From Anaerolineae bacterium (GTDB lineage: Bacteria; Chloroflexota; Anaerolineae; Anaerolineales; Villigracilaceae), in the NCBI GenBank assembly GCA_022013685.1, contig JAKLPV010000047.1, positions 1 to 64,000 on the forward strand: a stretch of DNA of 64,000 bases, given 5' to 3'. Each line of letters opens with the position of its first letter. Within the stretch, counting starts at the first letter, position 1. The position numbers and the translations under genes are program-made. This document shows, piece after piece, positions 13,609 through 35,589 of this stretch. Under the pieces are notes generated by a model that was not told the origin of the DNA, did no database searches, and saw only the letters and a list, made by a program, of their open reading frames with translations.

Positions 13609-14574
13609 ATGGAATACAGACGGTTAGGACGAGCTGGCATCAAGGTAAGTGTTTTATCATTTGGATCATGGGTTACATTCAGCAATCAGGCTGATATCGA
13701 TGCTGCCGCCGACATGATGTCTGCCGCTTATGAGGCAGGAGTCAATTTTTTCGACAATGCTGAAGTTTACGCGGGCGGAAAATCAGAACAAGTCATGGGC
13801 GCGGCGCTCAAAAAACTGGGCTGGCGGCGCAGCAGTTACCTGGTTTCAACCAAATTTTTCTGGGGACTGAACGACAACGTCAACGAGCGCAATACACTCA
13901 ACCGCAAACGGCTGATGGAGGCCATGGATGCTTCTCTCAAGCGCTTCGAACTGGATTATATCGACCTGGTCTTTTGCCACCGCCCCGACCCGGAAACACC
14001 CATCGAGGAAACGGCCCACGCCATGCACGACATCGTCACTTCAGGGCGGGCTCTCTACTGGGGCGTCTCCGAGTGGAGCGCGGATGAAATTCGCGCCGCC
14101 TGGAGCATCTGCGACAAATACGGCTGGCACAAGCCCATGATGGAACAACCGCAATACAACCTGCTCGCGCGCAAACGCGTCGAAGACGAGTATGCCCGCC
14201 TGTACGAAGACATCGGACTTGGAACCACCACCTGGAGTCCGCTGGCGTCTGGCCTGTTGACCGGCAAGTATAACAATGGCATCCCCGAAGGCTCGCGCGG
14301 CACGCTCCCCGGCTACGAATGGCTCAAAGAAGCCCTGACAGACCCAACGCGGCTCGAAAAAGTGCGCAAGCTGCAAGAAGTTGCCAATGGTTTAGACTGT
14401 TCACTTGCCCAACTGGCAATTGCCTGGTGCGCCAAAAACCCGAACGTCAGTACGGTCATTACCGGGGCTAGTAAGGTATCGCAGGTTCACGAGAACATGA
14501 AAGCGCTCGAAGTCCTGCCCAAGCTGACCCCGGAAGTTATGGCCCAAATCGACGAAATGGTCGGCAAAGCGTAA
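13609..14574 (+). CDS. Aldo/keto reductase, Kv-beta/AKR6-like
   Basis: 321 residues. A (beta/alpha)8 barrel with the AKR catalytic residues in sight: Asp in [14 protein letters not shown], the Tyr of the same segment, Lys in STKFFWG and His in [38 protein letters not shown] near the end contacts NADPH. The arrangement resembles potassium-channel beta subunits and E. coli YghZ-type reductases of small aldehydes. CAAGGAG sits 9 bases upstream. Not in an obvious operon. Confidence 0.9.
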
Positions 14575-14591: not shown

Positions 14592-14620
14592 CTGACAAAA
14601 ACGGCAAATGCCGCTATAAT
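14592..14620 (+). promoter_or_regulatory. Promoter of the aspartate kinase operon
   Basis: CTGACA (14592-14597) and TATAAT (14615-14620) are 17 bases apart. A perfect dyad CGGCA-AA-TGCCG (14602-14613) fills the spacer, so a repressor could also act here. Confidence 0.8.
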
Positions 14621-14643
14621 CGCGCCCATTAGGTAAACTAAAA

Positions 14644-14730
14644 ATGTCCTTTATCTCCATGACCACCACCACTATGATGACCATGACTCTGCATCAAGAG
14701 CCATTGCTTCGTGCTGGTGGTAGGGCCTGA
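14644..14730 (+). CDS. Thr/Met-rich leader peptide of an attenuator
   Basis: A 28-codon open frame starts 24 bases after the TATAAT, with AGGT 9 bases before the ATG. Residues 6-15 read MTTTTMMTMT: six Thr and five Met in 28 residues counting the start. Only 23 bases separate its TGA from a terminator hairpin, and aspartate kinase follows. The arrangement is that of E. coli thrL, where ribosome stalling at Thr/Ile codons prevents termination. Here stalling at Thr or Met codons would do the same, and both amino acids are end products of the aspartate kinase pathway. Confidence 0.8.
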   Translation: MSFISMTTTTMMTMTLHQEPLLRAGGRA

Positions 14731-14782
14731 CAAACCATACTACGCAAATACTAAACGCGGAGCATCAGCTCCGCGTTTTTTG
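14662..14782 (+). promoter_or_regulatory. Transcription attenuator upstream of aspartate kinase
   Basis: The terminator stem AACGCGGAGC (14754-14763) / GCTCCGCGTT (14768-14777) with loop ATCA is followed by TTTT. By hand folding, the Thr codon run ACCACCACCAC (14662-14672) can pair with GTGCTGGTGGT (14711-14721) with one mismatch, and GCTTCGTG (14706-14713) can pair with the terminator 5' arm CGCGGAGC (14756-14763) through 8 bp including two G-U pairs. The last two use overlapping bases, giving mutually exclusive protector and antiterminator forms. Confidence 0.75.
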
Positions 14783-14807: not shown

Positions 14808-16232
14808 ATGAAAGATACATTGGTACTCAAATTCGGCGGCACATCGGTTGGCAGCGCCAAAGCCATTCGGCAGATCATCGAAATTGCGCGCAGGGCAAAA
14901 ACGGAATGGCACAATGTGGCCATTGTCGTCTCGGCCATGAGCGGGGTGACGGATGCCCTGCTGAACGGGGCCGCCGCCGCAGTCGCCGGGGACGAGCTGA
15001 TCGCCGAAAAAACCGCCGCAGAACTGCTCAAAAAGCACTTCGATGCGCTGGACGAACTGGCCCCGGATGCCGAAGAAGTGCGCGATTTTATCGAAAGCAG
15101 CCTGAACGAATTCGTGACCCTGGCGCACGCCATCCGCGTTCTGGGCGAGGCTTCACCGCGCGCGCTGGATGCGATCGCCTCGCTCGGTGAGCGGATGAGT
15201 GCCCCGGTCGTCTCGGCGGCCCTGCGCCATACCGGAATCGGCTCGGAGGGCGTGGACGCCCGCGAGGTGGTCCTGACCGACAGCCTCTTCCAATCAGCCG
15301 TACCGGATCTGGACGCCACGACCCGCAACGCGCAGCGCGTACTTTGGCCGCTCTTTCAGGCCGGGAAAGTGCCCGTCATCACCGGCTTTATCGGCGCAAA
15401 CGAGCAGGGTGTTGTCACGACCCTCGGGCGCGGCGGCAGCGATTTCTCCGGGGCCATTTTCGGGGTCGTGCTCGATGCAGACGAGGTCTGGATCTACACC
15501 GACGTAACCGGCGTGATGACCACCGACCCGCGCATCGACCCGCGCGCGCGCACCATCCCCGAACTGTCTTTCCGCGAAATCTCTGAACTGGCTTTTTACG
15601 GCGCGAAAGTTTTGCACCCCAAATCCATCCGCCCGGTGGTTGAAAAGGGGATTACGCTGTGGGTCAAAAACACGTTCGCGCCCGAAGAAGCCGGCACACG
15701 CATCGTCGCCGATGGCCTGGCGCAGCTGGGCGACCTGCGGGCGGTGACAGCCTTCAAGGGCCAGAGCATCATCACGGTCGAGGGGCGCGGCATGATCGGC
15801 ATTCCCGGCATCGCGGCGCGCACGTTTGGGGCGGTGGCGCGCGAAAACACCAGCATTGTCATGATCTCGCAGGCCTCCTCGGAGCAAAGCATTTGTTTTG
15901 TCGTCCCGAGCAGCACGGCAGATACGGTTGTCAAGGCCCTCGAACACGAATTTCGCCTGGAACTCAACCGGCGCGATATCGACAGCATCCAGAAATCGGG
16001 TGAAACCGCCATCATCACCATCGTCGGGGCGGGCATGCGCACCACTCCCGGTCTGGCGGGAAAAATCTTTACCGCCACCGGCAACGCCGGGGTCAACGTC
16101 ATCGCCATCGCGCAGGGATCGTCCGAATGCAGCATCAGCCTGGTGGTCGATGCGCCCGATGCACAAAAAGCGGTTCTGGCGGTGCATGAGTTGATTGTAA
16201 ACTCAAGCCCTGAGCGGAGCGACGAGTGCTAA
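14808..16232 (+). CDS. Aspartate kinase
   Basis: 474 residues, monofunctional but of the long ThrA-like type. KFGGTSVGS (residues 8-16) is the nucleotide-binding start, with TLGRGGSDFSG and YTDVTGVMTTDPR in the kinase domain. Two ACT domains follow (about 318-385 and 400-465), expected to bind Thr or Lys for feedback inhibition. It phosphorylates aspartate in the first step toward Lys, Thr and Met. CCAGGAG lies 10 bases upstream. The last residues (SSPERSDEC) come from a dispersed palindromic repeat that starts inside the gene, so the natural C-terminus has probably been replaced. Confidence 0.93.
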   Translation: MKDTLVLKFGGTSVGSAKAIRQIIEIARRAKTEWHNVAIVVSAMSGVTDALLNGAAAAVAGDELIAEKTAAELLKKHFDALDELAPDAEEVRDFIESSLNEFVTLAHAIRVLGEASPRALDAIASLGERMSAPVVSAALRHTGIGSEGVDAREVVLTDSLFQSAVPDLDATTRNAQRVLWPLFQAGKVPVITGFIGANEQGVVTTLGRGGSDFSGAIFGVVLDADEVWIYTDVTGVMTTDPRIDPRARTIPELSFREISELAFYGAKVLHPKSIRPVVEKGITLWVKNTFAPEEAGTRIVADGLAQLGDLRAVTAFKGQSIITVEGRGMIGIPGIAARTFGAVARENTSIVMISQASSEQSICFVVPSSTADTVVKALEHEFRLELNRRDIDSIQKSGETAIITIVGAGMRTTPGLAGKIFTATGNAGVNVIAIAQGSSECSISLVVDAPDAQKAVLAVHELIVNSSPERSDEC

Positions 16233-16347: not shown

Positions 16348-17400
16348 ATGTCATCAAAAATCAAAGTCGCCATCCTTGGCGCAACCGGAGCTGTCGGCCA
16401 GCGTTTTGTGCAACTGCTTGAAAACCATCCCTGGTTCGAAGTCGCCGCCCTGAGCGGGTCGGAGCGCTCCATCGGACAGAAATACGGTGAAGCCTGCCGC
16501 TGGGTGCTCTCCGGGCCGATTCCCGCTTATGCCCGCGAAATGGTGGTTGTTCCATCTGCGCCCGGTTTCGAGGCCCAGATCGCCTTTTCGGCCCTGCCGA
16601 GCGAACAAGCCAAAGACATCGAACCGGAGCTGGCGCGGGCGGGTTACGCGATCTGCTCGAACGCGTCCTCCCACCGCATGTGGGAGGATGTACCAATCCT
16701 GATCCCCGAGGTCAACCCCGATCACACCAGACTGATCGAAATCCAGCGCAAACAGCGCGGCTGGAGCGGGTTGATCGTGACCAACCCGAACTGCACCAGC
16801 ACCGGCCTGACCATCGCCTTCCGCGCCCTGCACGACGCCTTCAGCATCCGGCGCGCTTTCATCGTCTCGATGCAGGCCCTTTCGGGCGCGGGCTACCCCG
16901 GCGTGGCCTCACTCGACATCATCGACAACGTCGTCCCATACATCGGCGGCGAGGAAGAAAAAGTGGAGACCGAACCGCTCAAAATGTTGGGCAGGTTCAA
17001 CGGCCAGGGCATCGATTTTGCCCCAATCCAGCTCTCAGCGCATACCAATCGCGTGGCGGTCATCGACGGGCACATGGTGGTCACTTCGGTGGAATTCAGG
17101 CGGGATGTCTCGTCGCAAGAGGCGATCGAGGCGCTGGCGGCTTTCTCCGCGCCGGAAATCGTCGCCGGGTTGCCTTCCGCACCCAAGCCTGTCATCGAGC
17201 TGCGGACGGAGGCCGACCGCCCGCAGCCGCGCCGCGACCGCGACTCTGGCAACGGCATGGCCAGCGTGGTCGGACGGGTGCGGGCAGACCCGCTCTTCCA
17301 CATCAAATTTGCCAACCTTTCGCACAACACCATCCGTGGGGCTGCCGGCGGGGCAATTTTGAATGCCGAGCTGCTGGTGGCGCAGGGGATTGTTGGATAA
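16348..17400 (+). CDS. asd: Aspartate-semialdehyde dehydrogenase, archaeal/fungal type
   Basis: 350 residues. The NADP fold begins VAILGATGAVGQRF, and the catalytic cysteine is Cys149 in NPNCTSTGL, followed by SMQALSGAGYPGVASLD. HTNRVAVIDGH and GNGMASVVGRVRADP are typical of the archaeal/fungal branch rather than the E. coli type. It reduces aspartyl phosphate to aspartate semialdehyde, the step after aspartate kinase, which is encoded just upstream. AAGGAG lies 6 bases before the ATG. Both genes should depend on the Thr/Met attenuator. Confidence 0.93.
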   Translation: MSSKIKVAILGATGAVGQRFVQLLENHPWFEVAALSGSERSIGQKYGEACRWVLSGPIPAYAREMVVVPSAPGFEAQIAFSALPSEQAKDIEPELARAGYAICSNASSHRMWEDVPILIPEVNPDHTRLIEIQRKQRGWSGLIVTNPNCTSTGLTIAFRALHDAFSIRRAFIVSMQALSGAGYPGVASLDIIDNVVPYIGGEEEKVETEPLKMLGRFNGQGIDFAPIQLSAHTNRVAVIDGHMVVTSVEFRRDVSSQEAIEALAAFSAPEIVAGLPSAPKPVIELRTEADRPQPRRDRDSGNGMASVVGRVRADPLFHIKFANLSHNTIRGAAGGAILNAELLVAQGIVG

Positions 17401-35502: not shown

Positions 35503-35589
35503 GGGGCGATGGCGGAATCGGCAGACGCAGCGGACTTAAAATCCGCCGATAGAGATATCGTGAGGGTTCGACCCCCTCTCGCCCCACCA
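35503..35589 (+). tRNA. tRNA-Leu(UAA)
   Basis: The acceptor arm GGGGCGA (35503-35509) pairs with TCGCCCC (35579-35585); the anticodon loop CTTAAAA gives anticodon TAA. A long variable arm (CGATA-GAGA-TATCG) marks a class II tRNA, and the T-arm GAGGG-TTCGACC-CCCTC is perfect. CCA is encoded (35587-35589). It is followed 64 bases later by the dGTPase gene, possibly in one transcript. Confidence 0.95.

Follow-up and report, generated by a model that had tools for sequence, protein, structure and literature searches.

The lysC and asd genes encode the initial steps shared by Thr, Met, and Lys synthesis, and the locus investigated here raises the question of whether their transcription is governed by a leader peptide whose translation would report the supply of two of these end products, Thr and Met. 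The window (the whole 64,000-nucleotide stretch of DNA that was analysed) contains the following parts at this locus.

14592-14620, plus strand: sigma-70-type promoter (-35 CTGACA, 17-nt spacer, -10 TATAAT; 11 of 12 consensus bases)
14631-14633, plus strand: possible Shine-Dalgarno AGG, 10 nt 5' of the leader ATG, predicted from the sequence
14644-14730, plus strand: leader ORF of 28 codons (ATG at 14644, stop TGA at 14730)
14659-14688, plus strand: control codons MTTTTMMTMT, lying within the predicted ON window
14662-14672, plus strand: segment 1 (Thr codons), forming the protector hairpin with segment 2
14705-14721, plus strand: segment 2, of which 14711-14721 pairs with segment 1 and 14705-14713 pairs with 14756-14764 (antiterminator)
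14753-14781, plus strand: intrinsic terminator, segments 3:4 (hairpin 14753-14778, 11 bp, T run to 14781)
14808-16232, plus strand: lysC-type aspartate kinase of 474 aa, at the head of the controlled unit (matches NCBIfam aspartate kinase families, with TIGR00657 above cut-off)
16348-17400, plus strand: aspartate-semialdehyde dehydrogenase, asd (TIGR00978 asd_EA, 425.7 bits, above cut-off)

The promoter, the 28-codon ORF with MTTTTMMTMT, and the terminator hairpin (AAACGCGGAGC-ATCA-GCTCCGCGTTT) that an earlier note had described before the gene are all present in the sequence, and the range it gave for the element, 14644-14782, is accurate except that the promoter and the gene are left out. 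The product of the leader ORF is MSFISMTTTTMMTMTLHQEPLLRAGGRA. The region contains five promoter-like sites against 1.4 expected from shuffles, a similar promoter precedes most of the 69 leaders considered below, and AGG, AGGA, or AAGG is likewise present in the relatives L008-L010. The upstream neighbour is an aldo-keto reductase gene (13609-14574) on the same strand as lysC, while asd is, judging by the spacing, probably cotranscribed with lysC. Six amino-acid-kinase family matches were found in the genome; of these, the aspartate kinase query retrieved only the lysC of this locus at E <= 1e-100, so the genome probably has no other aspartate kinase. The second of these matches (L002), considered as another aspartate kinase, was set aside as its own sequence and a proA-like neighbour indicate proB (judged by eye). 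The contig belongs to an Anaerolineales (Chloroflexota) genome, and among named relatives it is closest to HGW-Chloroflexi-6, an Anaerolineales MAG, and an Anaerolinea sp. MAG.

Alternative pairings of the leader transcript

It had been proposed that the Thr codon run can pair with 14711-14721 and that 14706-14713 can pair with the terminator 5' arm, giving exclusive structures. Both pairings are borne out, with 14662-14672 being 91% complementary to 14711-14721 and the antiterminator duplex reaching 9 bp (14705-14713 with 14756-14764). The predicted energies are about -14.0 kcal/mol for the antiterminator, -15.8 kcal/mol for the 1:2 pairing, and about -20 kcal/mol for the terminator; against shuffles, the fold of the leader with its terminator has a z of -5.4, and that of the leader without it only -2.0. 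A run of nine Thr/Met residues that includes five or more Thr is found a single time in the six frames of the window and in none of 20 shuffled windows, and the conservation of the leader in 68 other loci rules out a chance origin.

These pairings would allow the following course of events. RNA polymerase would start near 14627 and a ribosome would translate the leader. With Thr-tRNA and Met-tRNA charged, the ribosome would reach the stop codon at 14730 and cover segment 2, the hairpin at 14753-14778 would form, and transcription would stop. Were either charged tRNA scarce, the ribosome would stall within 14659-14688 and cover segment 1, so that 14705-14713 could capture the terminator 5' arm at 14756-14764, no terminator would form, and lysC-asd would be transcribed. 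If the leader were not translated at all, segment 1 would pair with segment 2 and the terminator would again form.

A riboswitch or T-box that senses an amino acid or tRNA directly, such as the lysine riboswitch, would place the control in the RNA itself, and the genome does use SAM riboswitches and T-boxes at other genes, including one T-box before thrS. At this locus, however, no such family matches: upstream of lysC, neither the T-box (RF00230) nor the lysine riboswitch gave a family-model match, a permissive Rfam threshold brought up no alternative family in the window or the relatives, and the sole relevant match is Thr_leader (RF00506) at 25.1 bits, below its gathering score of 55. What is conserved is an ORF containing stretches of Thr and Met codons in which synonymous Thr codons vary, and direct sensing by the RNA is hardly credible here. 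Across the whole window, the sole above-threshold RNA family match is a tRNA-Leu (taa) at 35503-35589.

Conservation of the leader among relatives

By sampling the upstream regions of related aspartate kinases, 69 loci of the window's family with enough upstream sequence were obtained, and in 63 of them a Thr-rich short ORF, followed closely on its 3' side by an intrinsic terminator, precedes the aspartate kinase. Leaders are missing from six family loci: L012, L016, and four members of a single genus (L029, L031, L118, and L127). Six further leaders belong to relatives that are unplaced or fall in other families (L149, L150, L152, L153, L042, and L044, the last with a weak terminator and no Met), and the remaining loci examined in the class carry no such leader. 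The cores of the leader set are about 55% Thr and 17% Met, and the leaders occur across two deep aspartate-kinase lineages. Failure of the leader codons or stems to be conserved in relatives had been named beforehand as grounds for abandoning the attenuator; both are conserved. One genus (L007-L011) contains both leader types, the species of L011 having a distinct kinase (54% identical) with the main-type leader and the other four carrying the window's type; the two kinase lineages split deeply in the tree, which suggests that the lysC unit may have been replaced or transferred along with its leader.

A covariance model (R1) built from 46 leaders recognizes the element upstream of lysC across much of the family, and in a phylum-wide sample its strong full-length matches are confined to the window's family; with this model the window's own leader type, which diverges more, reaches only 25 bits. 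Secondary R1 matches were considered as further copies and rejected, some being plain terminators (L230 and L231) and others different leaders.

The position of the start codon also differs between types. In 47 of the 69 leaders (e.g., L032 and L120), the ATG lies 10-11 nt past the -10 hexamer, mostly in a conserved CGCCCAAYATG-like context, with a predicted 5' UTR of about 3-4 nt, and from this promoter spacing the ORFs look nearly leaderless. The window's leader type, in its genus, has a gap of 23-24 nt from the -10 hexamer and a possible Shine-Dalgarno.

Covariation of terminator and antiterminator

Covariation was assessed in the 46 main-type leaders; the leaders of about 15 minus-strand loci are absent from both alignments (A1 and A2) and from the pair counts. 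The pairing is also present in the window's own type (nine leaders). In the main type, the terminator 5' arm and the bases that precede it pair with a coding segment of consensus CCGTGAGGCATTTGTG, which typically encodes REAFV. Across the 46 leaders, 89% of antiterminator cells are paired, with 30 double-change cells versus 10.2 in shuffles. The antiterminator covariation score was reached in none of 500 column shuffles, whose P-values treat related sequences as independent; in the sliding control, which keeps relatedness, displacing the antiterminator partner lowers pairing to 23-56%. The terminator of the relatives has 97% of its cells paired and shows 26 double-change cells, and its score was likewise reached in 0 of 500 column shuffles. 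The same arm columns (e.g., 152 and 153) covary with both partners, as mutually exclusive structures require.

This double covariation bears directly on the simplest alternative, a plain terminator (e.g., of the upstream aldo-keto reductase gene) accompanied by a spurious ORF and exerting no translational regulation. Although the terminator does sit between two same-strand genes, a promoter and the Thr/Met ORF intervene between the stop of the upstream gene and the terminator, the unit stays with lysC across genomes, and a plain terminator would not explain an arm that covaries with two partners. We consider this alternative very improbable.

Simulated ribosome stalling

The consequences of stalling were modelled by masking the RNA to 9 nt beyond each A-site codon, an approximate ribosome footprint, and computing how far the terminator arm pairs with the leader within the RNA synthesized up to that point. 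Arm-leader pairing in silico was 0.63 with the ribosome stalled on Thr, 0.60 on Met, and 0.14 at the stop codon; it was higher stalled than at the stop in 66 of 68 leaders, and shuffling the leader body lowered the stalled value in 61 of the 68. In the window's leader, the switch is predicted to be ON from codon 5 (Ser) through about codon 17 (His); before this stretch the values are low, since formation of the 1:2 hairpin is possible. For L007 and L010, the ON window falls on the Thr/Met block, and values are low on either side. The same script applied to E. coli thrL as a positive control returned a plateau over the Thr/Ile codons and zero at the stop. Without a ribosome, mean arm pairing was 0.47, and the 1:2 pairing predicts an untranslated OFF state only in some leaders, being weaker in the main type.

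Taken together, the locus presents clustered codons for pathway products, a terminator between the ORF and the first gene, an exclusive antiterminator with compensatory changes in the 46 main-type relatives, and, in silico, a control-codon stall that frees the antiterminator and an ORF completion that blocks it. The earlier suggestion that the element works in the manner of thrL is upheld by the conservation, by the compensatory changes common to terminator and antiterminator, and by the stall modelling with its thrL control. Ribosome-mediated (leader-peptide) transcription attenuation upstream of lysC-asd is thus, from sequence and modelling, very probable. For the full proposal, a Thr/Met-responsive ribosome-mediated attenuator controlling lysC-asd, we estimate a probability of roughly 0.7. 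We infer that the leader would be translated, that termination would occur in vivo, and that the switch would respond to Thr and to Met.

Does the leader respond to Met?

The proposal that dual Thr and Met codons sense two end products at once gains support from codon content, as Met codons recur within the Thr block in two aspartate-kinase lineages. By redefining the cores on Thr alone, a definition blind to Met, the core interiors were found to contain 198 Thr, 77 Met, 20 Ser, 1 Ile, and 1 Lys. Met thereby accounts for 77 of the 144 non-Thr positions inside the Thr block and Ile for 1 of 144, while 20 of the 805 residues that follow the core are Met. Of the 69 leaders, 63 have Met within the core or next to it, in both lineages; depending on the lineage, Met precedes the Thr run, interrupts it, or follows it. 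No Met occurs in the core of L044, L130, L137, L140, L026, and L117.

A Thr-only attenuator would share the same mechanism, with the Met codons owed to RNA pairing, neutral drift, or alternative starts and the Met supply unsensed. A role in pairing has some footing, given that Met codons are somewhat oftener paired than Thr codons (0.53 versus 0.43) and that replacing ATG with ATC shifts the predicted arm pairing by more than 0.1 in 16 of 63 leaders; yet the mean effect of this replacement on the predicted switch is about zero, and the order of residues varies by lineage (TTTTMMTMT, MTMTTTT, or TTTMMTT), unlike a fixed pairing need. Drift is opposed by the codons themselves. Of 336 core Thr codons, 323 are one transition from Ile and only 13 (ACG) from Met, so drift from the Thr codons used would yield Ile about 25 times as often as Met, whereas 1 Ile is observed against 77 Met. 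Met codons 3' of the Thr run cannot be useful starts, and the Thr/Asn leaders of the same family have 1 Met in 54 interior core residues. Some leaders do carry Thr alone, as a Thr-only attenuator would have it, but overall we regard this explanation as unlikely.

Returning to a leader that reads both amino acids, codon content makes Met sensing likely, and true Met sensing by the leader is in our judgment probable on balance. Scarcity of Met-tRNA would also slow initiation, which could blunt the Met signal. In two relatives (G150 and G109), a SAM riboswitch, a metY-type gene, and metA lie directly 3' of lysC-asd (L032 4233-4348, L023 4132-4254, L267, and L268), and there the unit therefore adjoins Met synthesis.

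Other amino-acid switches in the family

In other genomes of the family, R1 also matched leaders that encode Thr/Asn-rich peptides (e.g., MFIRHTTTNDNNTVTNHVAGRWW...) and have terminators; they precede a gene for a class I/II aminotransferase of some 434 aa (L214-L225, L227, and L228, the downstream gene of L221 lying outside the sequence). The aminotransferase is weakly similar to named aspartate aminotransferases, and its link to Asn or Thr is for this reason a guess. In the window's genome, the class I/II aminotransferase has no Thr/Asn leader. A similar leader, FSTDTNTNNT, precedes an aspartate/aromatic-type aminotransferase in L229. On the minus strand of G017:C13, a His-rich leader peptide (MNSRYALKHHHHHIHPPHGREV...) and a terminator stand before hisG (L226), which looks like a classical His attenuator in Chloroflexota. 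The window's genome carries a T-box before thrS and a SAM riboswitch before metK (G000:C42:30233-30508 and G000:C42:60516-60622), so several kinds of amino-acid switch are used. Tentatively, and at somewhat less than even odds, Anaerolineales may possess a set of two-amino-acid aspartate-family leaders, Thr/Met before aspartate kinase-asd and Thr/Asn before the aminotransferase, made from nearly leaderless short transcripts, in which each attenuator would integrate two end products.

Comparison with known systems

The closest counterpart is the leader of E. coli thrL (Rfam Thr_leader), whose attenuation mechanism is published (PMC4132733). Both have a short Thr-rich leader ORF, an overlapping antiterminator, an intrinsic terminator, and an aspartate-kinase gene on the 3' side, and the predicted stall profiles are comparable. 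They differ in the second amino acid, which is Ile in E. coli, the Ile codons beside Thr being read directly in the thrL sequence, and Met in the Chloroflexota leader, and in the genes controlled, thrABC in E. coli versus a monofunctional lysC followed by asd in Chloroflexota. No match to Thr_leader was found in the leaders of the relatives. The ilvB leader peptides of Actinobacteria resemble the present leader in that one peptide carries codons for several end products, although these are branched-chain amino acids before other genes and the mode of regulation is described there as unclear (PMC1262725). The His leader peptides of hisS/hisZ in Firmicutes (Naville and Gautheret 2010, PMC2965389) are likewise leader-peptide attenuators outside Proteobacteria and Actinobacteria, but for another amino acid, other genes, and another phylum.

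The earlier note had been aware of no described case in this phylum, and the searchable papers, which exclude most subscription journals, agree, as none on Chloroflexota leaders or Thr/Met leaders was found. Attenuation of the thrL kind is already known; Met as the second amino acid and the Chloroflexota host set the present leader apart, no such switch having been found described there. Leader-peptide attenuators for amino acids have mostly been viewed as belonging to Proteobacteria. The 2010 survey noted that leader-peptide systems had previously been shown only in Proteobacteria and Actinobacteria and added Firmicutes (PMC2965389), and a survey of cis-regulatory RNAs that included five Chloroflexi genomes considered that amino acid attenuators may have arisen in gammaproteobacteria and been transferred very few times (PMC3766115). 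The presence in Chloroflexota of a conserved attenuator whose structure covaries in its own right speaks for an origin that is independent or much older, and, if the proposal is true, the Thr/Met leader would be a direct response of what is probably the sole aspartate kinase to two end products.
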